The translations under genes and the position numbers were made by a program. From assembly GCF_007164525.1 (NCBI RefSeq), contig NZ_AP019791.1, positions 2,901,501 to 2,965,500 on the forward strand: a stretch of 64,000 nt of DNA, written 5' to 3'. Positions 9,513-42,142 of the stretch are shown here, piece after piece (the stretch's first letter is position 1; the number at the start of each line of letters is the position of its first letter). This DNA is from Rubrobacter xylanophilus. Its GTDB lineage: Bacteria; Actinomycetota; Rubrobacteria; Rubrobacterales; Rubrobacteraceae. The notes below the pieces were generated by a model. That model was not told where the DNA came from and made no database searches. It saw nothing but the letters and a program-made list of their open reading frames with translations.

Positions 9513-9857
9513 GTGGCCGGAGAAACCGGGACGGAGCGCGTGCCCGCCGAGCTGGCCCGGGCCGGGGAGGCCCGGCACTACATCACCTGGCTCGGCGGCG
9601 CCGCCGGTCTGCGCGGGGAGGATCTGCACGGGCTCGCGGTCGCCGCCGAGGCCGTCCTCACCGACGTGCTGCTCGCCTCCGATGGGGGGACCATGGAGAT
9701 CTCGGCCCGCAGCGAGGGCGGGCTGCTGAGGATAGAGATCTCCCACCCCTCGGCGGGGGGCCGGGTGCGCAACCTCGAGGCGGTGCTGGAGCGCTTTCTC
9801 GACGGGCACGAGCTCTCCCCCGGAAGGAGCGTCCTCGTGAAGCGGCTTCCCGCCTAG
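9513..9857 (+). CDS. Small HATPase/RsbW-like protein, probably degenerate
   Basis: Protein of about 114 residues resembling the anti-sigma-factor kinase fold: an RHYITWLGGAAGL start, an LHGLAVAAEAVLTDVLLAS helix where the ATP N-box should be, then EISARSEGGLLRIEISHPS strands. The asparagine of the N-box (normally ELVxNAxxH) is not seen, and the G1 motif is not clear, so ATP binding is doubtful. The end (GHELSPGRSVLVKRLPA) fits the last strand of the fold. The start is uncertain: GTG 9513 lacks a well-spaced ribosome site, and GTG 9540 is an alternative. The stop overlaps the convergent gene by CTAG. Confidence 0.5.
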   Translation: MAGETGTERVPAELARAGEARHYITWLGGAAGLRGEDLHGLAVAAEAVLTDVLLASDGGTMEISARSEGGLLRIEISHPSAGGRVRNLEAVLERFLDGHELSPGRSVLVKRLPA

Positions 9858-10132
9858 GAGGAGAGGGCCCGCAGCCGCTCCTTCACCCGCTCCTCCTCGT
9901 CGCGCAGGTGGCGGAAGACGTCCTGGGCGAAGCGCACGGCGTGCTCCTCGGGGAGGTTGATCCTGCGGTTTTTCAGGACGGAGTCGAGCTCCTTTATCGC
10001 CGCCTCGGCCATCCCTACCATCATCTCCGCCTGCTTGAGCATCTCCGCGCGCTCCTCCTCGGGGATGTCGGCGCCAAGGCGCAGGCGTTCCCGGTGCTCC
10101 TCCAGGTACCTTATGAAGTCCCTTATACCCAT
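9854..10132 (-). CDS. Small helical protein of unknown function
   Basis: Protein of 92 residues, rich in Glu, Arg and Ala and almost certainly all-helical, with no membrane segment or cysteine. It begins MGIRDFIRYLEEHRERLRLG and contains IPEEERAEMLKQAEMMVGMA. I do not recognise the family. Reading-frame composition and an ATG at 10132 preceded by TATAAT argue that it is real. It follows the DPOR-like B gene by 23 bp on the same strand but has its own promoter-like sequence. The stop overlaps the convergent small HATPase-like gene. Confidence 0.65.
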   Translation of the reverse strand: MGIRDFIRYLEEHRERLRLGADIPEEERAEMLKQAEMMVGMAEAAIKELDSVLKNRRINLPEEHAVRFAQDVFRHLRDEEERVKERLRALSS

Positions 10133-10155: not shown

Positions 10156-11598
10156 TCAGAAGCGGGACTCCAGGAAGATCCCGCGGGTCACCTCCGGCGA
10201 GCCCAGCTCCCGGGCCCGCTGCTCGGCCAGCCGCCGGGCCCGCCCCCGCAGGAACACCGGCACCCCGGCCAGCTCCTCCAGCGCCTCCTCGGTCCAGGAG
10301 ATCTCCGGCGGCCCGGGCTCCTCCGGCGGCTCCTCCACCTGCCGGAGGGCCCCATCCAGCGCGTCGGCCAGCACGCTGGAGCCCGCGTACCCCATCAGCG
10401 GCCGCGGAGCGAAGGACCGCTCGCCCGCGGGCGGGCAGAAGGGCAGAAACGGTATCCCCAACGACCCGGCGACCTCCTCCTCCAGCTCGGTGCCCACCAG
10501 CAGGTCCGGGGCGGAGCGCTCGATCCTCCGGTCCACCTCCTCCGGGTCGTCGGCGGCGAAGGCCGCGTCGGTGAAGGTGCTGGCGTGGAACAGGAAGTCC
10601 CGTTCCAGGTGGGTCATGTAGGTGCCGCAGCCGGCCACCCTGAGCCCCACCTCGCGCGAGAGAGCGTACCCCAGCCCCAGCGCGTAGGTGAAGTCCCCGA
10701 AGATGAACACGCTCCTGTCCTCGAAGACCTCCGGCGGGGCCAGCCGGGCGTACCAGGGCAGCTTCGCCGTGCGCGAGAGCTCGCCCCAGATCGCCTGCCG
10801 CACCGTCCGGGCCTCCACCTCGCAGACCCTGGCCGCCGCCCGCAACGCCGCCCCGGTCCCGGACGTCCCGATCATGGGGGTGGTGACCCGCGGGATGCCG
10901 AACTCGTCCTGCAGGTAGAGGGTAGCGGACTCCGCCACCTCCCGGTAGAGGACGACGTTCACCCAGGCCCGGGTGAGGCGGGAGAGCTCCTCCTCCCCGG
11001 CCCCCAGCGGCACCCGGGCGTTGACCCCTATCCCTATCAGGCCCAGGAGCCGCTCCGCCTCGGCGTACTCGGCCTCGGCGTCCCTGCCGAGCGCCGGCGG
11101 CCCGAAGAGGTTCGCGGTGGGCTCGGCGGTGCGGGGCTGGGGGACGGCGTGGGCCCGGATTACGTCCTCGAGCGCGAGCTCCGTCGCCTCCGTCTCGGCC
11201 ATCCCCGGCACCTGCCAGCCGCAGGGGATGAAGTGCGGGCCCCGGCCCGTCTCGGGGTGCGGGGGCAGCGTGAGCTCCCCGGGGGGTTCCTCGCCCGAGA
11301 GCAGGGCCGCCTCCGAGCGGGCGAGGAGGAGGGTCCGGGCCTCCGGGTTGCGCCCGGCGGCCCGGAGCAGGTCCCGCTGCAGGTCGCCCGGGGCCCGGGT
11401 GTCGTCCGGGCGCCGCCACATCGGGCTCAGCGTCAGCGGAGCCGGGGAGCCGTCGCGCCTGCGGTCGGCGTGGAAGAAGGGGAAGTAGTTCTCCCCCGGC
11501 AGGGCGCGCAGCACCGCGTGGGCCTCCCGCAGGCTCGCCGCCAGGTGCAGGATGCCGTGTCCGGACGGGCCCTCGTAGACCCCCCGCAGCAGCCTCAT
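10156..11598 (-). CDS. DPOR/nitrogenase-like subunit B (BchB/ChlB homologue) with altered cluster ligand
   Basis: Protein of 480 residues aligning by eye along the length of BchB/ChlB, the B subunit of dark-operative protochlorophyllide reductase. Matching landmarks are VYEGP at the start, NLFGPPALG, GIGVNARVPLGAG, SVFIFGDFTYALGLG, DLLVGTELEEEVAGSLGIP and the C-terminal domain EELAGVPVFLRGRARRLAEQ. The position of DPOR Asp36, which ligates the shared 4Fe-4S cluster, is Glu36 here (ALPGENY against APQGDTY). A conserved Cys motif of BchB (SSCTAEL) reads RSEAALL at residues 94-100. The ATG at 11598 overlaps the N-gene stop as ATGA. The substrate is unknown; a true protochlorophyllide reductase is unlikely without these ligands. 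Confidence 0.8.
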   Translation of the reverse strand: MRLLRGVYEGPSGHGILHLAASLREAHAVLRALPGENYFPFFHADRRRDGSPAPLTLSPMWRRPDDTRAPGDLQRDLLRAAGRNPEARTLLLARSEAALLSGEEPPGELTLPPHPETGRGPHFIPCGWQVPGMAETEATELALEDVIRAHAVPQPRTAEPTANLFGPPALGRDAEAEYAEAERLLGLIGIGVNARVPLGAGEEELSRLTRAWVNVVLYREVAESATLYLQDEFGIPRVTTPMIGTSGTGAALRAAARVCEVEARTVRQAIWGELSRTAKLPWYARLAPPEVFEDRSVFIFGDFTYALGLGYALSREVGLRVAGCGTYMTHLERDFLFHASTFTDAAFAADDPEEVDRRIERSAPDLLVGTELEEEVAGSLGIPFLPFCPPAGERSFAPRPLMGYAGSSVLADALDGALRQVEEPPEEPGPPEISWTEEALEELAGVPVFLRGRARRLAEQRARELGSPEVTRGIFLESRF

Positions 11599-12938
11599 AG
11601 GTTGGTCGCGGAGTCCAGCGCCTCGGCCCGGTCGAGGGCGCGGACCAGAAACTCCAGCACCCTGCGGGCTCCCCCGTAGCCGTGCACCCCGAGCCGCAGG
11701 AAGTCCCGCGAGCAGCGGCACAGCTGCCCCCGCGCCACCAGCGCCGCGTAGAGGCCCGGGCTGGCCACCACCAGATCGGGGCGCGAGCGCTCTATCCGCT
11801 CCAGCTGGCCCCTCCAGTCCGGCGACTCCACCACGTCCACGTCCGGCCCGAGCGCCCGCAGCTCCTCCGAGAGCAGTCGCCGGTCCAGCCGCGGGACCCC
11901 GACCTCCAGCACCACCGCCCCGGCATCGGCCAGAAAGCGGGCCAGCGGCACCTCCAGCCCCGTGTCCCCGGCGAAGAAGATCCTCTTGCCCCGGATGCGG
12001 TTGCGCAGCGGCTGCAGCTCCTGCCAGACGGCCCGCGCCCGCCCCAGCTCGCTGGCGGTGGACCCGGCGACCCCCGCCACCTCCTGGATGAAGCGGGCCG
12101 TGCCGTCCACCCCGATGGGGCACAGCGTCCGGATCGCCTCGGCCCCGCGCCGCTCCGCGGCCTCGAGCGCCGCCCCGAGGTTGGGGTCCAGCGCGGCGAC
12201 CAGCGTCCCCTCGCCCACGGGCGGAAGTTCCCACACTCCACCCGCCGGGACCGTTCCGGCCACCTCGACCCCGTCGCGGGCCAGCTCGGAGGCCACCTCC
12301 CGCCCGGAGCCGGGGGAGTGGACCGCTCCGAGCAGCGCCACCGGCCGCCGCAGCGGCACTCGGCGCTCCTCCCCGCCCGTCCGGCCCAGCAGACCGGCCA
12401 GCAGACCCCCGCCGCCCTTGGCCGCGCCCTCCTCCCTGGGCGCCGGCACGCCGGAGGCCCCCTCGGGGCACAGCCCGAGGAGCTCCGCCAGCGTCCGGTC
12501 CTCCAGGTCCGTGGCCAGCACCCCGGGCGCCGGGTAGGGCTCGTCCGGGTCCACCGCGAGCACCGGCAGCTCCAGACGCCGGGCGGCGAGCCGGGCCTCG
12601 AACCCGGCGTCCACCCCCAGCCGGCGCGCCGACCGGCCGGCCACCAGGAGCACCGCCTCCAGGCCCCTGAAGCCCGCCGCGGCCTCCACGGTGCCGGAGG
12701 CGACCCGCCCCTGCTCCGGAGGGTCTTCCGGGTCGAGCAGGAGCGAGAGGACCCGCGGGCTGCGCGGCGGCGGGAAGGTTCCCGGTGCAGGAGGCGGCGG
12801 GACGCACCGCAGCAGGTGGGCCTCCGATCGGGTCCCGGCGACCACCACCAGGAGCCCGGGCAGTCGCTCCGCCAGACCCCCCGCGGCGCCGAGCGGGGGG
12901 AGCACGTCCGGAACGCCAGACTCGTTGAGTATGGTCAA
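11595..12938 (-). CDS. DPOR/nitrogenase-like subunit N (BchN/ChlN homologue) lacking cluster cysteines
   Basis: Protein of 447 residues similar to BchN/ChlN. Recognisable segments are LLVVVAGTRSEAHLL (BchN: VGTRTCAHLL), GEGTLVAALDPNLGAALEAA, GKRIFFAGDTGLEVPLARFL and ERIERSRPDLVVASPGL. The three cysteines that bind the NB cluster in BchN (26, 51 and 112 in Rhodobacter) appear absent: no Cys precedes residue 45, position 51 is Glu39, and the third motif reads LLVAGRSARRLG. About 30 residues rich in Gly and Glu (near 165-190) look like an insertion. The TTG at 12938 is preceded by GGAGGGGG. The gene overlaps its B partner; no L (Fe-protein) gene is in the window. Confidence 0.75.
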   Translation of the reverse strand: MTILNESGVPDVLPPLGAAGGLAERLPGLLVVVAGTRSEAHLLRCVPPPPAPGTFPPPRSPRVLSLLLDPEDPPEQGRVASGTVEAAAGFRGLEAVLLVAGRSARRLGVDAGFEARLAARRLELPVLAVDPDEPYPAPGVLATDLEDRTLAELLGLCPEGASGVPAPREEGAAKGGGGLLAGLLGRTGGEERRVPLRRPVALLGAVHSPGSGREVASELARDGVEVAGTVPAGGVWELPPVGEGTLVAALDPNLGAALEAAERRGAEAIRTLCPIGVDGTARFIQEVAGVAGSTASELGRARAVWQELQPLRNRIRGKRIFFAGDTGLEVPLARFLADAGAVVLEVGVPRLDRRLLSEELRALGPDVDVVESPDWRGQLERIERSRPDLVVASPGLYAALVARGQLCRCSRDFLRLGVHGYGGARRVLEFLVRALDRAEALDSATNL

Positions 12939-12999: not shown

Positions 13000-13710
13000 C
13001 TAGTTTAAGCCGTGCAGGGCGTCGAGCGCCAGCTCCACCATGCCGTCCACCGCCGAGCGCAGATCCTCGTCGCTGATCCTGACGACCTCCTCGCCGATGG
13101 TGTCCGAGACCGTCAGCAGGCAGCCGGCCCGCACCCCGCGCATGGCGGCTATGGTGAAGATGGCCGCCGCCTCCATCTCCACCGCCAGCACCCCCAGCCG
13201 GCCCCAGAGCCCGGCCGGGTCCTCCACCGGATCGTAGAAGAGGTCGGAGCTGACCACCGGACCCACGAAGACCCGGCGCCCGGAGCGCTCGGCGGCGTGG
13301 TGGGCGGCGTGCACGATGTCGAAGTGGGCCGCCGGGGCGTAGGGGAGGCCGCGGGTGAGGGAGGAGACGGTGCCGTCCTGCGGTGCGGCGGCGGTGGCGA
13401 CGACGAGGTCGCCGAGGCGCAGCTCCCGGTGGTAGCCGCCGCAGGTCCCCACCCGCACGAGGTTGCGGGCCCCGAGCTGGATGAGCTCCTCCACCACGAT
13501 CGCGGCGCTCGGACAGCCCATCCCGGTGGCCTGCACCGAGACCGGCTTCCCCCGGTAGGAGCCGGTGTAGCCGAGCATGCCGCGCTCCCGGGTGACCAGG
13601 CGCGGGTTCTCGAAGAAGGTCCTGGCTATGTACTCCGCCCGCAGCGGGTCCCCCGGGAGCAGGACGCTCTCGGCGAAGTCTCCGGGCTCCGCACGTACGT
13701 GTACCGGCAT
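13000..13710 (-). CDS. deoD: Purine-nucleoside phosphorylase, DeoD type
   Basis: Cytosolic hexameric-type phosphorylase of 236 residues that cleaves purine (deoxy)ribonucleosides with phosphate to base and (deoxy)ribose-1-phosphate. NP-I family motifs are VLLPGDPLRAEYIA (phosphate site), GMGCPSAAIVVEEL, RVGTCGGY and the substrate site VLAVEMEAAAIF. The active-site aspartate is in TVSDTIGEE. The ATG at 13710 has AGAGGAGG upstream. It is the last of three deo-type genes in this minus-strand run. Confidence 0.93.
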   Translation of the reverse strand: MPVHVRAEPGDFAESVLLPGDPLRAEYIARTFFENPRLVTRERGMLGYTGSYRGKPVSVQATGMGCPSAAIVVEELIQLGARNLVRVGTCGGYHRELRLGDLVVATAAAPQDGTVSSLTRGLPYAPAAHFDIVHAAHHAAERSGRRVFVGPVVSSDLFYDPVEDPAGLWGRLGVLAVEMEAAAIFTIAAMRGVRAGCLLTVSDTIGEEVVRISDEDLRSAVDGMVELALDALHGLN

Positions 13711-13767: not shown

Positions 13768-15033
13768 TCAGAGGCTATCCAGAATAGCAGGGGGCGGGGG
13801 CACGGGCTTGGGGGAGAGGACGAGCGCCCCGGAGACGAGCCCGGCGGCCCGCCCGACCTCCCGGCCCCCGTAGAGCCGGGCGACCGGCTGGCCCTCCTCG
13901 ACCCGGTCCCCGAGGTCGACCAGGAGCTCCACCCCGGCCCCGGGGTCGACCGGGTCGCCCTTCTTCTGTCGTCCGGCCCCGAGCAGCAGGGCCGCTCTGC
14001 CCACCCCGAGCGCGTCGAAGCGCTCGACGTAGCCCTCTCCCGGCGAGGGGACCTCGCGCACCTCGGAGGAGAGCGGGAGGTCGGCGAGGGAGTCCGGGTC
14101 GCCGCCCTGGGCCCGCACGAAGCGCACGAAGAGCTCGTAGGCGGCCCCGCTCGCGAGCGCCCGCCCGACGGCCCTCTCCGGCTCCGAGACCCCCTTGAGC
14201 TCCAGCAGCCGGACGGCGACGGAGCGGGCCACCTCCCCAAGATCCCGCGGCGCCTCCTCCCCCCGCAGGAAGCGGAGGCTCTCCCGGACCTCCAGGGCGT
14301 TGCCCACGGCCCGGCCCAGGGGGCGGCTCATGTCCGAGATCATGGCCGCCGCCCGGACGCCGAGGTCTTCGCTGAGCCGGATCAGCAGCCGGGCCAGCTC
14401 CCGGGCCTCCTCCGGGGTGCGCATGAAGGCCCCGGAGCCGCACTTGACGTCGTAGAGGAGGTGCCCGGCGCCGGTGGCCGCCTTTTTGGAGACGATGGAC
14501 GACCCGATGAGCGGCAGCGAGTCCACCGTGCCGGTGGCGTCCCTGAGGGCGTAGATGGCCCTGTCGGCCGGGGCAAGCTCCCCGGCTTCGGCGATGGCCA
14601 GCCCGACCTCCTCGACCTGCCGCCGGAAGCGCTCCTCGGTGAGCGAGCAGCTGAAGCCGGGGATGGACTCCAGCTTGTCTATGGTCCCGCCGGTGATCCC
14701 CAGGCCTCGCCCGGAGAGCTTGGCCACCGGCGCCCCGCAGGCTGCGGCGAGCGGGAGGGCGGTGAGGCTGACCTTGTCCCCGACGCCCCCTGTGGAGTGC
14801 TTGTCCACGCACCCCGGGAAGGAGTAGCGTTTCCCGGAGTCCGCCATCGCCCGGGTCAGGGCCAGGGTCTCCTCGTAGCCCATTCCCCGGATGAAGACGG
14901 CCATGAGCAGGGCGGACATCTGGTAGTCCGGGATCCGTCCGGCGGTGTATCCCTCGACCACCGAGCGGATGAGGGACTCCGGCAGCTCCCCGCCCCGCTT
15001 CTTTATCTCTATGGCCTCCAGGACGTCGCTCAC
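13768..15033 (-). CDS. deoA: Pyrimidine-nucleoside (thymidine) phosphorylase
   Basis: Protein of 421 residues of the NP-II family, cleaving thymidine, deoxyuridine or uridine to base and pentose-1-phosphate. Motifs are an N-terminal helical domain (YQMSALLMAVFIRGM), the phosphate-binding loop DKHSTGGVGDKVSL, KLSGRGLGITGGTIDKLE and a C-terminal barrel-sandwich domain. Whether it prefers thymidine or is the broader Pdp type cannot be told here. The GTG at 15033 overlaps the peptidase stop as GTGA. Deoxyribose-1-phosphate made here is the substrate of the DeoB encoded upstream. Confidence 0.93.
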   Translation of the reverse strand: MSDVLEAIEIKKRGGELPESLIRSVVEGYTAGRIPDYQMSALLMAVFIRGMGYEETLALTRAMADSGKRYSFPGCVDKHSTGGVGDKVSLTALPLAAACGAPVAKLSGRGLGITGGTIDKLESIPGFSCSLTEERFRRQVEEVGLAIAEAGELAPADRAIYALRDATGTVDSLPLIGSSIVSKKAATGAGHLLYDVKCGSGAFMRTPEEARELARLLIRLSEDLGVRAAAMISDMSRPLGRAVGNALEVRESLRFLRGEEAPRDLGEVARSVAVRLLELKGVSEPERAVGRALASGAAYELFVRFVRAQGGDPDSLADLPLSSEVREVPSPGEGYVERFDALGVGRAALLLGAGRQKKGDPVDPGAGVELLVDLGDRVEEGQPVARLYGGREVGRAAGLVSGALVLSPKPVPPPPAILDSL

Positions 15034-31730: not shown

Positions 31731-32459
31731 GTGACAGCCATGTTTCTGGGCCGGGGCCTTCTCGCCGGGCTGCTCGCCGGGCTGCTCGCCGGCGCTTTCG
31801 CCTTCGCCTTCGGGGAGCCCGCCGTGGATCGGGCGATAGAGCTCGAGCGGCTCTCCTCCGCCGGTCACCCGCACGCCCACGGCGGGGACGGGGAGCTCTT
31901 CGGGCGCACCGCGCAGAGGGTCGGGTTGTTCTTCGCCACCGGGGTCTTTGGGGTGACCGTGGGGGGCATCTTCGGGCTGGTCTACGCCCTTCTGCGGGGA
32001 TACCTGCGGGCCGGGGACGAGTGGGGCAGGAGCCTCACCCTCGCCGCGGCGGGTTTTCTGGCGGTCTTCCTCATTCCGTTCGTCAAGTACCCGGCGAACC
32101 CGCCGACGGTCGGGGATCCGGAGACCATCGGGGCGAGGACGGCCGCGTACTACGCGATGGTGGGCATCTCGCTCCTGGTCGTCTTCCTCGGGTGGATGGC
32201 GGCCCGGAGGCTCCGGGAACGCGGGGTGAGCGCCCCGGTCCGGCAGGTGCTCGTCGTCGCGGGTTGCGCCGCCGCGGTGGGGGTGGCGTTCGCGCTGCTC
32301 CCGGGCTCTCCCGACCCCGGAGGATTCCCGGCGGGGTTGCTCTGGGAGTTTCGCCTCTCCGCGTTCGGGACGCAGGCCGTTTTCTGGGCGGCCCTGGGGG
32401 CCATCTTCGGCCTGATCGGCGAGCGGAGGGCGAGGGAGACCGGGCGGTCGGCGGCTTGA
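31731..32459 (+). CDS. cbtA: Cobalt transporter subunit CbtA
   Basis: Membrane protein of 242 residues with about five or six helices. The start GRGLLAGLLAGLLAGAFAFAFGEPAVDRAI is characteristic of CbtA. A His-containing loop (SAGHPHAHGGDGE, near residues 43-55) lies between helices 1 and 2 and may bind metal, and FVKYPANPPTVGDPETI is a conserved family loop. The GTG at 31731 has GAGG six bases upstream and is preferred over ATG at 31740. It forms the predicted transporter with CbtB. Confidence 0.9.
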   Translation: MTAMFLGRGLLAGLLAGLLAGAFAFAFGEPAVDRAIELERLSSAGHPHAHGGDGELFGRTAQRVGLFFATGVFGVTVGGIFGLVYALLRGYLRAGDEWGRSLTLAAAGFLAVFLIPFVKYPANPPTVGDPETIGARTAAYYAMVGISLLVVFLGWMAARRLRERGVSAPVRQVLVVAGCAAAVGVAFALLPGSPDPGGFPAGLLWEFRLSAFGTQAVFWAALGAIFGLIGERRARETGRSAA

Positions 32460-33961
32460 GGGGCTCGGTGCTCGTCTGCGGGACCCACTCCGACGCGGGG
32501 AAGAGCGTCGTGGTCGCCGGGTTGTGTCGCTGGCTCGCCCGCGAGGGGGTGAGGGTCGCCCCGTTCAAGGCCCAGAACATGGCGCTCAACTCCTTCGTCA
32601 CCCGGGAGGGGGCCGAGATCGGGCGCGCCCAGGCCGCCCAGGCCGCCGCCGCCCGCGTCGAGCCGGAGGCCGCCATGAACCCCGTGCTGCTCAAGCCCTC
32701 CTCCGGAGGGAGCACCCAGGTCGTGGTGCTCGGAAAGCCCCACGCGGTAGCCTCCGCCCGGAGCTACCAGCGCATGAAGCCCGGGCTCCTGCCGATGGTG
32801 CTGGAGGCTCTCTGGGACCTCAGGCGGCGCTTCGAGGTCGTGGTCTGCGAGGGGGCCGGAAGCCCCGCCGAGATAAACCTGCGCGAGAACGACCTCGCCA
32901 ACATGGGGCTCGCCCGAGCCGCGGGTCTGCCGGTCGTCCTCGTCGGGGACATAGACCGGGGCGGGCTCTTCGCGAGCCTCTACGGCACGCTGGCCCTGCT
33001 CTCTTCGGGGGACCGGAGGCTCGTGCGCGGGTTCGTCGTCAACAAGTTCCGGGGGGATCCGGTGGTCCTCGCCCCGGGCCTCGCGGAGCTCAGCCGCCGC
33101 ACCGGCCGGCCCTTTCTCGGGACGCTGCCCTACGCGCCCGGGGTGGGGATCGACGGGGAGGACTCGCTCGCGCTGCGGGAGGCCGGCGTCGGGGCTGCCA
33201 GCGGGGAGGTGCTGCGGGTCGCGGTGGTCCGGCTGGGGAGGATGAGCAACTTCACGGACTTCGACCCGCTCCTCTGCGAGCCGCGGGTCGCGCTGCGCTT
33301 CACCCGTTCGGCGGCGGAGGTGCTCGCCGCGGACCTCGCGATCGTCCCGGGGACCAAGGCCACCGTGGAGGATCTCGGCGGCCTGCGGGGGGCGGGGCTC
33401 GACGAGGCCCTCGCCGCCCGCGCCCGTCGGGGGCTCCCGACCCTCGGGATCTGCGGTGGATACCAGATGCTGGGGCGCAGGATATCGGACGGCGTGGAGG
33501 GGGAGGTGCCGGAGGCGGAGGGGCTCGGGCTGCTCCCGGTGGAGACGGTCTTCGAGCCGGAGAAGGTTCTGGCCCGGCCCGCGGGGGTCGCCCCCGGCTT
33601 CGGCGGGGTCGAAGTCTGCGGGTACGAGATCCACCACGGCCGCACCACCAGGCTCGGCGGGGAGCCGCTCTTCGCCGGGGAGGGCTTCGAGGAGGGCTGC
33701 CGCGTGGGGGCGGTCCTCGGAACCTCCTGGCACGGCGTCCTCGAGTGCGACGGCTTCCGCCGGGCGCTGCTGCGCTGGGTGGCGGAGGTGCGCGGGTTGG
33801 ACGGCTGGGAGCCCGGAGAGTTCTCCTTCCCCGCCGTGCGGGAGGAGCGCTTGGAGCGCCTGGGGGACCTCGTCGCCGAGAACCTCGACCGCGAGGCCCT
33901 GCTGCGCATCCTGGAGGAGGCCGGAGAAAGGGAGGAGGCCGGTGTCCCCTACCCCTCCTGA
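32456..33961 (+). CDS. cobQ: Cobyric acid synthase
   Basis: Glutamine-dependent amidotransferase of 501 residues that amidates positions b, d, e and g of adenosylcobyrinic a,c-diamide. The N-terminal ATPase domain has the P-loop-like VCGTHSDAGKSVVVAG, then VAPFKAQNMALNSFVT and VVCEGAGSPAEINLRENDLANMG, all typical. The C-terminal class I glutaminase domain has its nucleophile in LGICGGYQMLG and His in GTSWHGVLE. TTG at 32456 overlaps the cbtA stop as TTGA. Confidence 0.95.
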   Translation: MRGSVLVCGTHSDAGKSVVVAGLCRWLAREGVRVAPFKAQNMALNSFVTREGAEIGRAQAAQAAAARVEPEAAMNPVLLKPSSGGSTQVVVLGKPHAVASARSYQRMKPGLLPMVLEALWDLRRRFEVVVCEGAGSPAEINLRENDLANMGLARAAGLPVVLVGDIDRGGLFASLYGTLALLSSGDRRLVRGFVVNKFRGDPVVLAPGLAELSRRTGRPFLGTLPYAPGVGIDGEDSLALREAGVGAASGEVLRVAVVRLGRMSNFTDFDPLLCEPRVALRFTRSAAEVLAADLAIVPGTKATVEDLGGLRGAGLDEALAARARRGLPTLGICGGYQMLGRRISDGVEGEVPEAEGLGLLPVETVFEPEKVLARPAGVAPGFGGVEVCGYEIHHGRTTRLGGEPLFAGEGFEEGCRVGAVLGTSWHGVLECDGFRRALLRWVAEVRGLDGWEPGEFSFPAVREERLERLGDLVAENLDREALLRILEEAGEREEAGVPYPS

Positions 33962-36900
33962 GAAGATCCTCTTCCTGACCACCGCGGACACCGAGATCCT
34001 GGCCGCCTCCCGCGCCGTCCGCGCCCTTCCCGAGGGCTTCCCGGAGGTGCTGTGCGCGAACCCCTCCAGGATGGAGGATCCGGCGGAGCTCGAGCGGCTG
34101 CTCGACGGGGCGGGGGCCGTCGTCGTGCGGCTTCTCGGGGGGCGCAGGGCCTGGCCCGAAGGCTTCGAGGTGCTGCGCGCCCGGTGCCGGAGCCTCGGTA
34201 TCCCGCTGCTCGCCATGGGCGGGGAGTCCGTGCCCGACGCCGAGCTCATCGCCCTCTCCACCGCCCCCAGGGGCGCGGTCACCCAGGCCTTCGAGTACCT
34301 GCGGCACGGTGGGGTGAAGAACACCGGGAACCTCCTCCGCTTCGTCGCCGACACCCTCCTCATGGGAGGGTACGGCTTCGACCCCCCGGAGGCCGTGCCG
34401 GGGGCCGGGGTCTACCGGCCGGAGGGGCTCCCCCGCCTCCCCGGTGCGCCCACCGTCGGGGTGGTCTTCTACCGGGCGCACCTCCTCTCCGGGAACACCG
34501 CCTTCGTGGACGAGCTCTGCCGGGCCCTCGCGCGGGCCGGGGCCAACCCCCTTCCCGTCTACTGCTACTCCCTGCGGGGCGAGGGGGAGAGGGCGGCGCT
34601 CCGCCTGCTCGAGGGGCGGGTCGATGCGCTCGTGGTCACCGTGCTCGCCAGCGGGGGATCCGGGGCCGCCGACGCCGTGCGGGAGGGGCTTCCCGAGGAC
34701 TGGCTCGAGTGGGAGGCCCCGGCGCTGGAGAGGCTCGCCGTCCCGGTGGTGCAGGGGATCTGCGCGACCACCTCCCGGGAGGTCTGGGAGGGCTCCGCGG
34801 CCGGGCTCTCTCCGCTCGACGTGGCCTGGCAGGTGGCCATCCCCGAGTTCGACGGCCGCATCATCTCCGTCCCCTTCTCCTTCAAGGAGGTTCTCGAGGA
34901 TGGCTCCCCCGTCGGCGCGCCGCTCACCGTCTACCGGGCCGACCCGGAGAGGACCCGGAGGGTCGCCGGCCTCGCCGCCCGGCTCGCCCGGCTGCGGCGC
35001 AAGCCCAACGACCAGAAAAAGCTCGCCATCCTCCTCTCCAACTATCCCACCAAGCACTCCCGGGTGGGCAACGCCGTCGGGCTCGACACCCCGGAGAGCG
35101 CCGTGCGACTGCTCCGGCGGCTCTCCGAGGCCGGCTACCGGGTTGAAGGAGCTCCGGAGAGCGGGGACGCCCTGATCCACGCGCTCGTATCCGCCGGCGG
35201 CCACGACCAGGAGTTCCTGACCCGGGAGCAGCTGCAAGACGCCACCGGCAGGGTGGAGGCCTCCCGCTACGCCGGGTGGTTCCGGCGGCTCCCGGAGAAG
35301 CTGCGGCGGGAGGTCGAGGAGCACTGGGGCCCTCCGCCCGGGGAGCTGTACGTGGAGGACGGGAGCATCTCCATAGCCGGGCTCCGTTTCGGCAACGTCT
35401 TCGTCGGCATCCAGCCGCCCCGCGGCTTCGGGGAGAACCCCGTCGCAATCTACCACGACCCGGACCTTCCGCCCTCCCACCACTACCTGGCCTGCTACAG
35501 GTGGCTGGACGAGGAGTTCGGGGCCGACGCCATCATCCATCTCGGCAAGCATGGGACCCTCGAGTGGCTCCCGGGCAAGTCGCTCGGGCTCTCCCCCGGC
35601 TGCGCCCCGGACGCCGTCCTCGGCGACGTGCCCCTCCTCTACCCCTTCGTGGTCAACGATCCCGGCGAGGGGACCCAGGCCAAGCGGCGGGCCCACGCGG
35701 TCATCGTCGACCACCTCATCCCCCCGATGACCCGCGCCGAGACCTACGGCGGTCTGGCCCGGCTGGAGGAGCTGCTGGACGAGTACTACCAGGTGGAGAC
35801 CCTCGACCCGGCCAAGCTCCCCGCCATAGAGCAGAGGATCTGGGAGACGCTGCGCGAGATAGAGCTGCACCGGGACCTCGGGGTCGAGGAGAAGCCGGAG
35901 GAGTTCGCAGACTTCCTGAACCACGTGGACGGCTACCTCTGCGAGATAAAGGATCTGCCCATCCGTGGCGGGCTGCACGTGCTCGGCGAGCCCCCGCGGG
36001 GTGAGGCCCTGCGGCACCTCACCGCCCAGATAATGCGCCTCGGGGCCGGGGAGGTGCCGGGGCTGCGCCGGGCGTTGGCCGCAGCCTTCGGTCTGGACGA
36101 GGGGGAGCTCGCGGCGGCCGGTGGCGCCCGGATCGGGGCGCCGGAGGCCCTCACGGCGCGCTTCCCGGGGCCCTCCGCCACCGCCTCGGACCTCCTGGAC
36201 CGGCTGGAGGACGCCCAGCAGGCCCTCCTCGCCGCGCTGGAGAGGCGCGGGTGGGACCCGGAGGCCTCCGGGGAAGTGTGCCGGGAGGTGCTGGGCTTCG
36301 CGGATGGGGGCGTCGTCCGCGCGCTCCGCTTCGCCGCCGGGGAGGTCGTCCCCCGGCTCCTCGCCGTCCCGCGGGAGATGGAGAGCCTCCTCGATGGCCT
36401 CTCGGGACGCCACGTTCCCGCGGGCCCCTCCGGCTCGCCCACCCGCGGCCAGCTCAACGTCCTCCCCACCGGGCGCAACTTCTACTCGGTGGACCCGCGG
36501 GCCATCCCCTCCAGGCTCTCGTGGGAGGTAGGGCAGAGACTCGCACGGGATCTTTTGGAGCGGCATCTGCGGGAGGAGGGCCGCTACCCGGAGACCGTCG
36601 GGATCGTCGTCTGGGGCACCGCGGCGATGCGCACCCGGGGAGATGACGTGGCCGAGATCCTGGCCCTGCTCGGGATCCGGCCCGTGTGGGACGGGGATTC
36701 GTTGCGGGTGACGGGCCTCGAGCCCATCCCGCTGGAGGAGCTCGGGCGGCCCCGCGTCGACGTGACCGTCAGGATAAGCGGCTTCTTCCGGGACGCCTTC
36801 CCGAACCTCGTCTCTCTGCTCGACGACGCCTTCCGGACCGTGGCGGAGCTGGAGGAGCCCACAGAGATGAACTTCGTGCGAAAGCACGTCCTGGAGGAAC

Positions 36901-37658
36901 TCTCCGGGGGGGCCGACCGGCGGAGGGCCACCCTGCGCGTCTTCGGCTCCAAACCCGGCACCTACGGGGCCGGGCTCCTCCCGCTCATCGACGCCCGCAA
37001 CTGGAGGAGCGACGAGGACCTCGCCGAGGTCTACGCCGTCTGGGGCGGCTACGCCTACGGGAGGGGGCTCGGCGGAGTGGAGGCCCGCCGGGAGCTCGAG
37101 GCCAACCTCCGGCGCGCCGAGGTCGCGGTCAAGAACGTGGACAACCGGGAGCACGACATCTTCGACTCCGACGACTACTTCCAGTATCACGGCGGCATGA
37201 TCGCCGCCGTCCGGGCCCTCACGGGGCGCAACCCGAAGAGCTACATCGGCGACTCCGCCGACCCCGCGAGGGTGAGGACCCGCGACCTCTCCGAGGAGGC
37301 CAGGCGGGTCTTCCGCGGCCGGGTGGCGAACCCGAAGTGGATCCGGGCCATGATGCGCCACGGCTACAAGGGGGCCTTCGAGCTCTCGGCGACCGTGGAC
37401 TACCTCTTCGGCTACGACGCCACCGCCGGCGTGGTGGAGGACTGGATGTATCGCGACGTCACCAGAAGCTACCTGCTCGACGAGGAGGTAAGGCGTTTCA
37501 TGCAGCGTTTTAACCCCTGGGCGCTCAGGGCCATCGGCGAGCGGCTGCTGGAGGCCGCCGGACGCGGCCTCTGGGAGAGCCCCGACCCGCATCTGCTGGA
37601 GGAGATAAAGCAGATCTACCTGCACACCGAGGGGCTTCTCGAGGAGGACGGCGGATGA
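33942..37658 (+). CDS. cobN: Cobaltochelatase subunit CobN
   Basis: Very large chelatase subunit of 1238 residues, homologous to CobN and the BchH/ChlH magnesium chelatase subunit; it binds the tetrapyrrole and inserts metal with AAA+ partner subunits. Landmarks are GGESVPDAELIALS, YLRHGGVKNTGNLLRFVADTLL, HLGKHGTLEWLPGKSLGLSP (a hallmark), YPFVVNDPGEGTQAKRRAHA, and MMRHGYKGAFELSATVDYLFGYDATA. Length is close to Pseudomonas CobN. Position in a B12 operon argues for cobalt over magnesium. GTG at 33942 has GGGAGGAGG upstream and lies 20 bp inside the cobQ 3' end. Confidence 0.95.
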   Translation: MSPTPPEKILFLTTADTEILAASRAVRALPEGFPEVLCANPSRMEDPAELERLLDGAGAVVVRLLGGRRAWPEGFEVLRARCRSLGIPLLAMGGESVPDAELIALSTAPRGAVTQAFEYLRHGGVKNTGNLLRFVADTLLMGGYGFDPPEAVPGAGVYRPEGLPRLPGAPTVGVVFYRAHLLSGNTAFVDELCRALARAGANPLPVYCYSLRGEGERAALRLLEGRVDALVVTVLASGGSGAADAVREGLPEDWLEWEAPALERLAVPVVQGICATTSREVWEGSAAGLSPLDVAWQVAIPEFDGRIISVPFSFKEVLEDGSPVGAPLTVYRADPERTRRVAGLAARLARLRRKPNDQKKLAILLSNYPTKHSRVGNAVGLDTPESAVRLLRRLSEAGYRVEGAPESGDALIHALVSAGGHDQEFLTREQLQDATGRVEASRYAGWFRRLPEKLRREVEEHWGPPPGELYVEDGSISIAGLRFGNVFVGIQPPRGFGENPVAIYHDPDLPPSHHYLACYRWLDEEFGADAIIHLGKHGTLEWLPGKSLGLSPGCAPDAVLGDVPLLYPFVVNDPGEGTQAKRRAHAVIVDHLIPPMTRAETYGGLARLEELLDEYYQVETLDPAKLPAIEQRIWETLREIELHRDLGVEEKPEEFADFLNHVDGYLCEIKDLPIRGGLHVLGEPPRGEALRHLTAQIMRLGAGEVPGLRRALAAAFGLDEGELAAAGGARIGAPEALTARFPGPSATASDLLDRLEDAQQALLAALERRGWDPEASGEVCREVLGFADGGVVRALRFAAGEVVPRLLAVPREMESLLDGLSGRHVPAGPSGSPTRGQLNVLPTGRNFYSVDPRAIPSRLSWEVGQRLARDLLERHLREEGRYPETVGIVVWGTAAMRTRGDDVAEILALLGIRPVWDGDSLRVTGLEPIPLEELGRPRVDVTVRISGFFRDAFPNLVSLLDDAFRTVAELEEPTEMNFVRKHVLEELSGGADRRRATLRVFGSKPGTYGAGLLPLIDARNWRSDEDLAEVYAVWGGYAYGRGLGGVEARRELEANLRRAEVAVKNVDNREHDIFDSDDYFQYHGGMIAAVRALTGRNPKSYIGDSADPARVRTRDLSEEARRVFRGRVANPKWIRAMMRHGYKGAFELSATVDYLFGYDATAGVVEDWMYRDVTRSYLLDEEVRRFMQRFNPWALRAIGERLLEAAGRGLWESPDPHLLEEIKQIYLHTEGLLEEDGG

Positions 37659-39517
37659 GCCCCTATCCGTTCAGCGCGATCGTCGGGCAGGAGGAGCTCA
37701 AGCTCGCCCTGCTTCTGAACGCCGTCTCGCCGGAGGTGGGGGGCGTCCTGATCCGGGGGGAGAAGGGCACCGCGAAGTCCACCGCCGCCCGGGCCCTGGC
37801 GGCACTCCTTCCTCCCATCAGGGTCGTCTCCGGATGCCCTTTCTCCTGCGATCCCGCCTCCCCCAACCCGGAGTGCCCGGCCGGACCCCACCCTCCCGAC
37901 GCTCCCTCCGGGGAGCGCCCGGTGCGGCTGGTCGAGCTTCCGGTCGGGGCCTCCACCGACCGCCTGACCGGGACGCTGGACCTCGAGAAGGTCCTCACCG
38001 AAGGAGAGCGGGCCTTCGAGCCCGGCGTACTCGCCGCCGCCCACCGCGGCATCCTCTACGTGGACGAGGTGAACCTGCTGCCCGATCACCTGGTGGACGT
38101 GCTGCTCGACGCGGCGGCGATGGGGACCAACCACGTCGAGCGGGAGGGGGTGAGCGTGAGCCACCCGTCGCGCTTCGTCCTCGTCGGCACGATGAACCCG
38201 GAGGAGGGAGAGCTGCGGCCGCAGCTCCTGGACCGCTTCGGGCTCTCGGTGGAGGTCGCGGGGAGCCCCGAGCCCGAAGAGCGGGCCGAGGTGGTGGGCC
38301 GCCGCCTGAGCTACGAGGCCGACCCGGAGGGTTTCGCCGCGCTCTGGGAGGAGGAGGAGAGGGAGCTCTCCCGCCGCATCCTGGAGGCCAGGGAGCTGCT
38401 CCCCTCCGTCCGGCTCCCCGGCGCGATGCTCCGCAGGATCTCCGGTGTGTGCTCCGGCCTCGGGGTGGACGGGCTGCGCGGCGACATCGTGACCGCCAAG
38501 GCCGCCCGCGCCCTCGCCGCCTGGGAGCTTCGGGGGGAGGTCTCCGAAGAGGACGTCCGGCGGGCCGCCCTCCTGGCCCTCCCGCACCGCCGCCGGCGCG
38601 CCCCCTTCGAGCAGCCGGGTCTTGAGCCCGAGGAGCTGGACGCCCTCCTCTCCTCCGGAGACGGCGGTCCGGATACGGATCCCCCGGGGGGCGGGGAGGA
38701 GCCCGACGCGAACCGCACCGGCTCCGGGGAGCACCGGTTCTCCTCCGCCGGGAGCTTCGACCCGGCCGGGATAGAGGCCCCGGCGCGGGGCCGCGGGGGG
38801 GAGCCGGGACGCCGCAGCCGCGCCGTCGGGGAGCACGGGCATCCGGTGGGCGCCCGGGAGGCCGCCGGGGAGGTCTCCGACCTCGCGCCCGCCGCCACCG
38901 TTCGGGCCGCCGCCCCGCACCAGGCCGGGCGCGGGCGGGAGGGCCCCGGGCTCGTGCTGCGCCCGGAGGATCTGCGCCGCAGGGTGCGCGAGGGAAGGGA
39001 AGGGAACCTGCTGGTCCTGGTGGTCGACTCCAGCGGCTCCATGGCCGCCCGCAGCCGGATGTCCGCGGTGAAGGGGGCCGTGCGCGCGCTGCTCGAGGAC
39101 GCCTACCGGCGCCGCGACCGGGTGGCCGTGATCTCCTTCCGGGGCCAGGAGGCCCGGCTGCTCCTGCCGCCCTCCTCCGGGGTGGAGCTCGCCGCCGCCC
39201 GGCTGGAGGAGCTCCCCACCGGAGGGCGCACCCCGCTCGCCGCCGGGCTCGAGCTCGCGGCGGAGACCATCCTGCGGGAGCAGGGCCGCGGAGAGGGGCG
39301 CCGCCCGCTGCTCGTTGTCCTCACCGACGGGCGCGCCACCGCCGGGGGCGACCCGCTCGCGGCCGCCCGGCGGCTGCGGGAACAGGGGGTCCCCGCGGTG
39401 GTCGTGGACACCGAGGTCGGTTTCGTCCGGCTGGGGCTCGCCGGAGAGCTCGCCGGGGCGCTCGGTGCCCGGTGTGTGCGTTTGGAGGAGCTCGCCGGGG
39501 AGAGGAGGAGCGCGTGA
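37655..39517 (+). CDS. Fused ChlI/ChlD-type AAA+ chelatase subunit
   Basis: Protein of 620 residues combining both motor subunits of a class I-type chelatase. The N-terminal AAA+ domain has Walker A GEKGTAKS (35-42), Walker B ILYVDEVNLLPDHLVDVLLDA and VLVGTMNPEEGELRPQLLDRFG. A low-complexity acidic/Pro-Gly linker (about 325-420) follows, then a von Willebrand A domain with the MIDAS DSSGS at 458-462 and LTDGRAT. It overlaps cobN by 4 bp, so it is the likely ATPase partner of CobN in place of separate CobS and CobT proteins. Confidence 0.92.
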   Translation: MSPYPFSAIVGQEELKLALLLNAVSPEVGGVLIRGEKGTAKSTAARALAALLPPIRVVSGCPFSCDPASPNPECPAGPHPPDAPSGERPVRLVELPVGASTDRLTGTLDLEKVLTEGERAFEPGVLAAAHRGILYVDEVNLLPDHLVDVLLDAAAMGTNHVEREGVSVSHPSRFVLVGTMNPEEGELRPQLLDRFGLSVEVAGSPEPEERAEVVGRRLSYEADPEGFAALWEEEERELSRRILEARELLPSVRLPGAMLRRISGVCSGLGVDGLRGDIVTAKAARALAAWELRGEVSEEDVRRAALLALPHRRRRAPFEQPGLEPEELDALLSSGDGGPDTDPPGGGEEPDANRTGSGEHRFSSAGSFDPAGIEAPARGRGGEPGRRSRAVGEHGHPVGAREAAGEVSDLAPAATVRAAAPHQAGRGREGPGLVLRPEDLRRRVREGREGNLLVLVVDSSGSMAARSRMSAVKGAVRALLEDAYRRRDRVAVISFRGQEARLLLPPSSGVELAAARLEELPTGGRTPLAAGLELAAETILREQGRGEGRRPLLVVLTDGRATAGGDPLAAARRLREQGVPAVVVDTEVGFVRLGLAGELAGALGARCVRLEELAGERRSA

Positions 39518-40089
39518 GCCCTGAGGGGAGGGCGCCGCGGGAGGAGCGGCTCAGGCGGCGCTCCCGGCGCGACCGGCCGCTCCTCGTGGTCAACACCGGT
39601 GAGGGCAAGGGGAAGAGCACCGCCGCCTTCGGCATCATGCTGCGCGGCTGGGCCCGCGGCTACCGCATCGGGGTCTACCAGTTCGTCAAGAGCGGCAAGT
39701 GGAGGGTTGGGGAGCAGCGGGCGGCCGAGGCCCTGGGGAACATCGACTGGTTCAAGATGGGCGACGGCTGGACCTGGACCGTAGAGGATATCGAGCACTC
39801 GGCGGACCTGGCCCGCGAGGGCTGGGAGGAGGTCAAGCGGCGCCTCGCCGACGAGACCTACGACATGCTCATCCTGGACGAGTTCACCTACCCCATGAGG
39901 TACGGCTGGGTGGACACGGAGGAGGTCGTCGAGGTGCTGAAGGGGAGGCCCGGCTTTCAGCACGTGATCGTCACGGGACGCGGCGCCCCGCCGGAGCTCG
40001 TCGAGGCGGCGGACCTCGTGACCGAGATGCGCAAGGTCAAGCACCCCTTCGACGAAGGGTACAAGGGACAGAAGGGGATAGAGTGGTAG
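39514..40089 (+). CDS. cobO: Cob(I)yrinic acid a,c-diamide adenosyltransferase
   Basis: CobA/CobO-type ATP:corrinoid adenosyltransferase of 191 residues that adds the 5'-deoxyadenosyl ligand to cobalt. P-loop VNTGEGKGKSTAAFG, then GYRIGVYQFVKSGKW, DMLILDEFTYPMRYGWV (Walker B-like) and VIVTGRGAPPELVEAADLVTEM define the family. GTG at 39514 overlaps the chelatase stop as GTGA. In CobA-type enzymes cobalt must first be reduced to Co(I); no dedicated reductase is seen unless the ferredoxin at 46945 contributes. Confidence 0.95.
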   Translation: MSPEGRAPREERLRRRSRRDRPLLVVNTGEGKGKSTAAFGIMLRGWARGYRIGVYQFVKSGKWRVGEQRAAEALGNIDWFKMGDGWTWTVEDIEHSADLAREGWEEVKRRLADETYDMLILDEFTYPMRYGWVDTEEVVEVLKGRPGFQHVIVTGRGAPPELVEAADLVTEMRKVKHPFDEGYKGQKGIEW

Positions 40090-41429
40090 AGATCCCACGC
40101 TTCGTCGTCGCCGGGACCCACTCCGGGGTCGGGAAGACCACCGTCTCCTCGGGGATAATGGCCGCGCTCGCCGCGAGGGGTTTCCGGGTGGCCCCCTTCA
40201 AGGTCGGACCGGACTTCATAGACCCCTCCTACCACGCCCTCGCCGCCGGACGCCCCGGGCGCAACCTGGATCCCTTCCTCTGCGGCGAGGACCTCATCGG
40301 GCCGCTCTTCTCCCACGGCGCGCGGGGGGCGGACGTCGCCGTGATAGAGGGGGTGATGGGCCTCTTCGACGGCAAAAGCGGCGGCGGGGACTTCGCCTCG
40401 ACCGCCCACGTGGCGAGGCTGCTGGGGGCACCGGTGCTTCTGGTCGTCGACGCTTCGGCCATGGCCCGCTCGGCGGCGGCGGTGGTGCACGGATACGCGA
40501 GCTTCGACCCGCGGGTGAGGGTGGGCGGTGTGATACTGAACCGCGTCGGCTCGGAGGCCCACGAGCGGATGTTGCGGGAGGCGGTCGAGCCCCTGGGCGT
40601 TCCCGTCTTGGGTGTCCTGCGCCGCGACGCCGGGCTCGCCGCCCCGGAGCGCCACCTGGGGCTGATCCCGGCCGCCGAGCGCCGGCGGGAGGCGCAGAGG
40701 ACGCTCTCCCGGCTCGGGGCGTCCGTCGCGCGGGGCATAGATCTGGAGGGGATTTTGCGTCTCGCCCGCTCCGCCGGGCCGCTGGAGGCGGAGCCCTGGA
40801 GCCCGGAGGCCCCGGAGCCCGTCCCGGGCGTGCGGGTCGCGGTCGCCTCCGGTCCGGCCTTCAGCTTCCTCTACCGGGAGAACCTGGAGCTGCTGCGCGG
40901 GGCGGGGGCGGAGGTTCTCTTCTTCGACCCCGCAGCGGACGAGGGGCTCCCCGAAGGGGCGGACGCGCTCTACCTGGGCGGCGGGTTCCCGGAGGCCTAC
41001 GCCGCGGAGCTCTCGGAGAACCGGCCCCTGAGGGAGGCGGTGCGCCGCTTCGCCGCGGAGGAGAGGCCGGTGGTCGCCGAGTGCGGGGGACTCCTGTACC
41101 TGGTGCGCAGCCTGGACGGGAGGGAGATGTGCGGGGTACTGGACGCCGGGGCCCGGATGACGGACCGGCTCACGCTGGGCTACCGGGAGGCGCGGGCCCT
41201 GACGGCCTCGCTGCTCGCCGGGGCCGGTGAGGAGGTGCGGGGCCACGAGTTCCACTACTCCGTGGTTGAGCCCCCGGCCGGGGAGAGCCCGGCGTGGGAT
41301 CTCGCGGGGAGAGGGCCGGAGGGGTTCGTCGCCGGCGGGGTGCACGCGAGCTACCTGCACCTCCACTGGGCGGCCCGTCCGGAGATGCCGCGCCGCCTGG
41401 TGCGGGTTGCGGCGGGGGTGCGGGCGTGA
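40083..41429 (+). CDS. cobB: Cobyrinic acid a,c-diamide synthase
   Basis: Amidotransferase of 448 residues (CobB/CbiA) amidating the a and c side chains. The ATP domain begins FVVAGTHSGVGKTTVSSGIMAAL and includes FKVGPDFIDPSYH and VIEGVMGLFDG. The C-terminal glutaminase domain has its Cys in VVAECGGLLYL and terminal His in GGVHASYLHLHW. In CobB the substrate is hydrogenobyrinic acid (late-cobalt route), in CbiA cobyrinic acid (early-cobalt route); sequence alone does not separate them. GTG at 40083 overlaps cobO by 7 bp. Confidence 0.95.
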   Translation: MVEIPRFVVAGTHSGVGKTTVSSGIMAALAARGFRVAPFKVGPDFIDPSYHALAAGRPGRNLDPFLCGEDLIGPLFSHGARGADVAVIEGVMGLFDGKSGGGDFASTAHVARLLGAPVLLVVDASAMARSAAAVVHGYASFDPRVRVGGVILNRVGSEAHERMLREAVEPLGVPVLGVLRRDAGLAAPERHLGLIPAAERRREAQRTLSRLGASVARGIDLEGILRLARSAGPLEAEPWSPEAPEPVPGVRVAVASGPAFSFLYRENLELLRGAGAEVLFFDPAADEGLPEGADALYLGGGFPEAYAAELSENRPLREAVRRFAAEERPVVAECGGLLYLVRSLDGREMCGVLDAGARMTDRLTLGYREARALTASLLAGAGEEVRGHEFHYSVVEPPAGESPAWDLAGRGPEGFVAGGVHASYLHLHWAARPEMPRRLVRVAAGVRA

Positions 41430-42142
41430 GCGGGGTGCTCGTCGGGGTCGGTGTGGGACCGGGGGACCCGGAGCTCCTGACGCTCGCCGGTCTGCGCGCC
41501 CTGCGGGAGGCAGATGCGGTCTTCGTCCCGGTGGGGGATGCGGGAGAGAGGGGCCGGGCGGAGGCGGTGGTGCGGGCGCATCTGGGGGCGGGGCGGGTGA
41601 GGCGGCTCGTCTTCGCCCTCTCCGGCGATGCGGCCGCGCTCGAGCGCAACCGGAGAAGAGCCGCCCGGGAGGTGGCGGAGCACCTGCGGCGGGGGGAGCG
41701 TTGCGCCTTCGCCACCCTCGGGGACCCCAACGTCTACTCCACCTTCACCCATCTCGCGCGGGCGGTGAGGGAGGAGGTGCCGGACGTGGAGGTGCGTACG
41801 GTGCCCGGGATCACGGCGATGCAGGATCTGGCCTCCCGCAGCGGCACGGTGCTGCTGGAGGGGAGGGACCGGCTGGCGCTCCTCCCGCTCACGGCGGGGG
41901 AGGAGGCGCTCGGGGCGGCCCTCGGGGACTTCGAGACCGTGGTCTGCTACAAGGGTGGCGGCCGGATGGCGGAGGTGCTGCGGGTGGCAGAGGAGGCCGG
42001 ACGGCTGGGGGGCGCGGTCTACGGCGCCCGGCTCGGGGTGGAGGGAGAGGAGATCCTGCCCGCGCGGGAGGTGCGCGGCCGGGAGGCCCCTTATCTCTCG
42101 ACGGTGATCTTCCCCCGCAGGGAAGGAGAGCCCCGTGGGTAG
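41426..42142 (+). CDS. cobI: Precorrin-2 / cobalt-factor-2 C20-methyltransferase
   Basis: SAM-dependent corrin methyltransferase of 238 residues (CobI/CbiL). Tetrapyrrole methylase motifs are GVGVGPGDPELLTLAGLRAL at the N-terminus, FATLGDPNVYSTFTHLA and VRTVPGITAMQDLASRSG. GTG at 41426 overlaps cobB as GTGA. With CbiX in the same operon the likely substrate is cobalt-factor II. Confidence 0.93.
   Translation: MSGVLVGVGVGPGDPELLTLAGLRALREADAVFVPVGDAGERGRAEAVVRAHLGAGRVRRLVFALSGDAAALERNRRRAAREVAEHLRRGERCAFATLGDPNVYSTFTHLARAVREEVPDVEVRTVPGITAMQDLASRSGTVLLEGRDRLALLPLTAGEEALGAALGDFETVVCYKGGGRMAEVLRVAEEAGRLGGAVYGARLGVEGEEILPAREVRGREAPYLSTVIFPRREGEPRG

Follow-up and report, generated by a model that had tools for sequence, protein, structure and literature searches.

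A BchN-BchB-like pair in Rubrobacterales has lost the cluster cysteines and is conserved together with a third gene

To our knowledge, the proteins so far described in the nitrogenase superfamily centre on iron-sulfur or related clusters, which a NifH-type ATPase feeds. The closest described system to the genes considered here is dark-operative protochlorophyllide oxidoreductase (DPOR). In its BchB subunit, Asp274 is the proton donor (PMC12518044), protonation of His378 affects electron and proton transfer (PMC4157233), both residues are important for protochlorophyllide binding and proton transfer (PMC12518044, PMC4157233), and Gly409-Leu410 is adjacent to the propionate of the substrate (PMC4157233). 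Homologues of BchN and BchB in Rubrobacter, which is not phototrophic, have already been published, according to the accessible parts of PMC7901476 (2021) and PMC9561532; the accessible text of PMC7203096 and PMC9561532 credits Gupta and Khadka (2016) with them, and that of PMC7203096 speculates on a simpler, dimeric enzyme that serves another purpose. Here we describe this pair, termed N and B, in a 64,000-nucleotide stretch of DNA (the window), positions 2901501-2965500 of the single-contig 3.02-Mb genome of Rubrobacter xylanophilus (NZ_AP019791.1). An earlier reading of the window, made from the sequence alone (the sequence-only reading), had pointed to Gupta and Khadka 2016, rightly, since the paper is cited in later literature, and had suggested that the pair lost all ligands of its shared 4Fe-4S cluster and took on a different, perhaps non-redox, function. 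We find that the cluster cysteines are absent throughout the order Rubrobacterales, in genes that are under purifying selection and are accompanied by a conserved third gene, X.

The pair is encoded as follows.

11595..12938, minus strand: N gene, BchN/ChlN homologue of 447 residues with a TTG start (TIGR01279 match, predicted fold like BchN)
10156..11598, minus strand: B gene, BchB/ChlB homologue of 480 residues with an ATG start (NF002789 match, predicted fold like BchB)

The B start codon overlaps the N stop by 4 bp (ATGA), and the sequence-only reading had the homology, coordinates, strand and overlap of the two genes right. The match of N to TIGR01279 (197.6 bits, cutoff 420) and to a second N model (186.7, cutoff 324) lies below the cutoffs, while B exceeds that of NF002789 (524.7 bits, cutoff 509) and falls below that of TIGR01278 (247.9, cutoff 490). 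B also carries the C-terminal PCP_red domain (PF08369, 47.3 bits). Related reductases fit far less well. BchY and BchZ scored 31.6 bits (cutoff 425) and 43.1 bits (cutoff 529), the best score against the nifD, nifK and nifE profiles was 36.9 bits (cutoffs at least 427), and a NifH partner was not found; by these criteria N and B fall into neither BchXYZ nor nitrogenase component 1/NifEN. The 3.02-Mb genome encodes no nitrogenase-component-1 protein besides N and B.

Conservation is weak over the first ~140 residues of N, and a single-sequence search aligns N only from residue ~190. Because the N-terminal third is so weakly conserved, the register of N was checked independently, and it is supported by MAFFT alignment with three proteobacterial DPORs, profile-profile alignment, profile alignment to DPORs of solved structure, and structural superposition. 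Profile-profile alignment against the three proteobacterial DPORs gave probabilities of 99.95 for N and 100 for B. In a profile search of the PDB, both proteins aligned over nearly their full length with Thermosynechococcus elongatus ChlN and ChlB (213.7 and 272.2 bits), and the cyanobacterial structure 2xdq is the nearest solved structure by sequence profile. The AlphaFold model of N (pLDDT 84.0) superimposes on BchN with a Z score of 45.1 and 2.6 Å over 390 residues; that of B is less certain (moderate pLDDT of 73.5) and superimposes on BchB with a Z score of 24.5 and 7.2 Å over 381 residues. The models thus predict the BchN and BchB folds for N and B. In the superposition, residue 7 of N is matched with residue 19 of Rhodobacter capsulatus BchN (3aek_A), which therefore places Pro14 on Cys26. 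The sequence-only reading had described the backbone of both subunits as otherwise conserved; the folds are indeed kept, but this was overstated for the weak start of N and for B, which is missing a C-terminal segment of ~40 residues.

We tallied the ligand columns in 30 orthologues of N and 33 sequences of B, using R. capsulatus numbering for DPOR residues.

12897..12899, minus strand: N Pro14, column of cluster ligand Cys26 (alignment, superposition); Ser, Pro, Ala or His in orthologues
12822..12824, minus strand: N Glu39, column of cluster ligand Cys51 (alignment); Glu or Asp in 30/30
12633..12635, minus strand: N Arg102, column of cluster ligand Cys112 (alignment); Arg in 25/30, otherwise Leu, Trp or His
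11491..11493, minus strand: B Glu36, column of cluster ligand Asp36 (alignment); Glu in 33/33
11311..11313, minus strand: B Glu96, column of the conserved BchB Cys95 (alignment); Glu or Asp in 33/33

The ligand loss is order-wide, with fixed REPLACEMENTS in place: none of the 30 N orthologues has a Cys in any of the three ligand columns. Acids are fixed at three of the five replaced positions (the Cys51, Asp36 and Cys95 columns), and they are joined by B Arg94, which is fixed, and B Arg31, found in 32 of the 33 sequences. These counts are of related sequences and hence do not represent independent events. In the control set, all four ligands (C, C, C and D) are retained by five DPORs, two of them cyanobacterial and three proteobacterial, and by two further actinobacterial relatives. 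Since the loss is common to the 30 N and 33 B sequences while these seven comparison proteins keep their ligands, it is neither a sequencing slip nor chance. The losses that had been read by eye are thereby borne out for the three Cys of N, including the absence of any Cys before residue 45, and for Glu36 of B, and they extend across the Rubrobacter orthologues, as it had been proposed to check. The claim that all ligands are gone holds for the Cys residues but not fully for Asp36, where the change to Glu is conservative and the Glu could bind a metal. Rescue by Cys45, the first Cys of N, was considered and rejected; the position is not conserved and is mostly Gln or Ser in relatives. Other Cys are newly conserved and have no counterpart in the three DPORs compared, namely N Cys407 (30/30) and B Cys259 (33/33), Cys388 (31/33) and Cys126 (26/33), and both subunits have acquired many newly conserved arginines.

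In the trees, the Rubrobacterales N and B proteins each split from all others with 100% support, on a stem of ~1.1-1.3 substitutions per site. The long stem is compatible with ancient divergence and also with fast change after the old function was lost, and the trees would agree with a single loss of the ligands followed by strong conservation of their replacements.

Comparison of B with BchB indicates further losses on the substrate side.

10735..10737, minus strand: B Pro288, column of the proton donor Asp274 (alignment); Pro, Val, Ser, Arg, Thr or Ala, never Asp
10423..10425, minus strand: B Gly392, column of His378 (alignment); Ala, Gly, Val and others, with no His among 33
10297..10362, minus strand: shortened B linker (alignment); the columns of BchB W402-G409 are empty in 33/33
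10174..10296, minus strand: PCP_red C-terminal domain of B (PF08369), absent in one sublineage

The segment from Asp400 to PCP_red (counted from Asp to Trp) spans 22-32 residues in Rubrobacterales B, compared with 59-71 in three DPORs. The domain beyond it has been lost from B in one Rubrobacterales sublineage (L050, L051, L053, L066). This includes the near-complete, two-contig genome G024, so PCP_red is dispensable there.

The partners of DPOR are also missing. No BchL or NifH was found in the 39 Rubrobacterales genomes, where the best PF00142 matches are ParA/Soj/MinD-like. We considered a BchL hidden among the P-loop ATPases and rejected it, as four matches that span the NifH family (from G007, G008, G017 and G019) have their best scores as ParA partition ATPases and are without the VCGGF motif. 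No BchM exceeded the TIGR02021 cutoff in any of the 39 genomes, compared with one of 14 control genomes. Positions 32400-42000 of the window contain a cobalamin biosynthesis cluster that comprises CobQ, CobN, CbiA-like genes and a ChlI/ChlD-like chelatase ATPase. Because the CobN-type chelatase sits within this cluster, it does not count as evidence for chlorophyll. BchH, BchI and BchD were rejected as such evidence on this ground, and CobN has no match in five of the genomes with a B gene (G002, G005, G025-G027). This cluster is a likely origin of the 'BchH/BchI/BchD' homologues that have been described from Rubrobacter.

B is present in 34 of the 39 Rubrobacterales genomes and in 13/13 genera. 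Among closely related pairs, one near-identical pair left out, the ratio of non-synonymous to synonymous substitution rates (dN/dS) was 0.16-0.29 for N and 0.09-0.21 for B, and therefore function has been maintained; many residues are invariant in the orthologues of both. A codon-usage study of radiation-resistant bacteria that included R. xylanophilus placed the B subunit among the predicted highly expressed genes (PMC4510606). Outside the order, 357 other actinobacterial genomes held only L-N-B or nitrogenase-like sets, in five genomes, a wider contig scan for N-B relatives returned only Rubrobacter-type loci, and a scan of viral contigs with DPOR B gave no match. Two loci depart from the usual pattern. 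In Rubrobacter marinus (L056, G028), N is seemingly interrupted, giving two tblastn pieces and an open frame for the C-terminal half only, next to an intact B; this may be a frameshift or a sequencing error. One metagenome-assembled genome (MAG), G030, holds two different N-B loci on separate contigs (L058, L059), which may reflect duplication or a mixed bin.

N and B lie within a conserved block of genes.

9854..10132, minus strand: X, a highly conserved, helical-looking protein of 92 residues, third gene after N and B
13000..13710, minus strand: deoD-type purine nucleoside phosphorylase, conserved directly upstream of N (identity by translation; synteny)
13768..15033, minus strand: pyrimidine-nucleoside phosphorylase (pdp), conserved upstream of deoD (identity by translation; synteny)

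X starts with MGIRDFI in nearly all genomes and has ~33 invariant positions among 13 diverse members, none of them a conserved Cys. No Pfam family scored above its cutoff for the window protein, which gave only weak coiled-coil-like matches, and the PDB profiles yielded no credible match (best E 0.024). X is found in exactly the 34 of 39 Rubrobacterales genomes that carry B and in none of the 357 other actinobacterial genomes sampled. N, B and X are missing from five genomes, all of them fragmented MAGs in which the neighbouring deoD has no close match either, so the co-absence of X and B is not independent evidence and the block may be universal in Rubrobacterales. All 31 loci that are long enough to reveal it show the order deoD-N-B-X, with gaps usually <120 bp, and pdp precedes deoD wherever the contig reaches. 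No terminator-like site was found between the block genes on the coding strand of the window, and the five genes are likely to form one operon, judging by their arrangement. The order-wide conservation, gene X and the conserved operon go beyond the sequence-only reading. In the accessible literature, a scope that does not take in Gupta and Khadka 2016, we found neither the ligand loss and the fixed acids nor the missing segment and X described.

We propose that N and B, together with X, form a DPOR-derived, cluster-free and non-redox complex of a ligand-binding or scaffold (pseudoenzyme) type, a proposal that we hold with middling confidence. N and B would assemble, probably still as an (NB)2 heterotetramer, without a [4Fe-4S] cluster and without electron transfer. 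The cluster site at the N-B interface would be taken over by conserved charged residues, the acids N Glu/Asp39, B Glu36 and B Glu/Asp96 and the arginines B Arg94, B Arg31 and, in most orthologues, N Arg102, and the simplest account would be a buried ion-pair network that holds the interface together. X, expressed from what is probably one transcription unit with two nucleoside phosphorylases, would work with the N-B complex, and the resulting non-redox assembly would replace the BchL-driven reductase. The operon hints at nucleosides as the bound ligand, though the neighbourhood could be incidental; a tetrapyrrole is possible by ancestry and is disfavoured by the missing segment. More tentatively, this would be a superfamily complex that works without metalloclusters or electron transfer, a three-component N-B-X system across Rubrobacterales with a possible place in nucleoside or nucleotide metabolism.

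Several points weigh against this proposal. The three carboxylates fixed at a single site might bind a metal ion, the ion pairing at the interface is itself a prediction, the newly conserved Cys of N (Cys407) and B (Cys259, Cys388, Cys126) would be left unexplained, and linkage accounts for part of the co-occurrence of X with N and B. The sequence-only reading was thus on firm ground in proposing a function other than that of DPOR, which the joint absence of the ligands, Asp274, His378, W402-G409, BchL and BchM strongly supports. Its more cautious 'perhaps non-redox' remains the best fit, qualified by the carboxylate set at the old site and by N Cys407 and B Cys259 and Cys388.

The carboxylates underlie the alternative that survives best, although we consider it unlikely: the old cluster site may have become a carboxylate metal site (Mg, Mn, Fe or Zn) built from the acids N Glu/Asp39, B Glu36 and B Glu/Asp96, in a different, perhaps hydrolytic or phosphate-related, enzyme. 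The acids are fixed at all three columns in every orthologue, more strictly than Arg102, and the new conserved arginines and the two nucleoside phosphorylases of the operon would suit an anionic or nucleotide-like ligand. However, the arginines nearby (B Arg94, B Arg31 and, in most orthologues, N Arg102) favour ion pairs, the site has no conserved His, and we recognised no known metal motif there.

The conserved Cys residues raise the further alternative of an iron-sulfur cluster or other redox centre elsewhere in the complex, reduced by X or by a ParA-type ATPase. Gupta and Khadka, in 2016, reportedly proposed a ParA/Soj/MinD protein as a substitute for BchL. N Cys407, B Cys259 and B Cys388 are conserved, and none occurs in the three DPORs compared. 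They are, however, far apart in sequence with no CxxC-type motif, the ParA-type proteins found are without the VCGGF motif of BchL, and X has no conserved Cys to offer. We regard a relocated redox centre as improbable.

Decay of a relic of past photosynthesis would account for the lost ligands, the loss of W402-G409 and the disappearance of PCP_red from one sublineage, but it is at odds with dN/dS values of 0.09-0.29, presence in 13/13 genera, the many invariant residues and the predicted high expression of B (PMC4510606), and we give it very little weight. A true but divergent DPOR or other tetrapyrrole reductase, as annotated automatically, has in its favour the B score above the NF002789 equivalog cutoff and the retained fold, gene order and PCP_red domain, but with the three Cys ligands, Asp274, His378, W402-G409, BchL and BchM all gone, N far below its cutoffs and the window chelatase belonging to the cobalamin operon, it is hardly credible, and DPOR chemistry by N and B appears very unlikely.

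If the proposed cluster-free complex is correct, a scaffold under purifying selection that has neither cluster ligands, donor nor substrate-side segment would show that a non-redox role is within reach of this fold. That every catalytic element is gone favours repurposing over the claim that an ancestral stage of chlorophyll synthesis survives in Rubrobacter. The NCBIfam equivalog, which names B a protochlorophyllide reductase, is a misleading annotation. B thus appears as a photosynthesis marker in genome surveys, and PMC9561532 and PMC7901476 had to explain it away. X provides a concrete handle for finding the function of N-B.

Comparison with known systems indicates how far the pair has diverged. 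The nitrogenase MoFe and FeFe proteins, NifEN and methylthio-alkane reductase share the superfamily fold (Z scores of 26-30 for N and 17-20 for B) but are metallocluster proteins with a NifH-type reductase, and none was found for the Rubrobacterales pair. Within the same phylum, a contig from another actinobacterial family (L112:4048-10632, G223) carries a complete BchL-N-B set beside multihaem cytochromes and two BchE-like genes of the B12/radical-SAM type; photosystem genes are absent from the 20-kb contig. The N and B of this set are homologous to the Rubrobacterales proteins but it differs in keeping all four cluster ligands and BchL, in the two adjoining BchE-like genes, and in having Asn at the Asp274 and His378 columns; because of these Asn residues, the set may reduce a different tetrapyrrole. 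A second actinobacterial L-N-B-like triad (L113:6074-9335, G043) keeps the three Cys of N and the Asp of B and has Gly in the Cys95 column of B. The non-phototrophic Rubrobacter BchN and BchB of Gupta and Khadka 2016 and PMC7901476 are, from the accessible text, the same genes as N and B. The BchN-BchB and ChlN-ChlB proteins of DPOR (2xdq, 3aek, 8vqh, 2ynm) resemble the Rubrobacterales pair in fold, adjacent N-B order, PCP_red domain and ~25% identity. The pair differs from them in the loss of three Cys, the replacement of Asp36 by Glu and of Cys95 by Glu or Asp, the loss of Asp274, His378 and W402-G409, the absence of BchL and BchM, and the presence of a new third gene, X.

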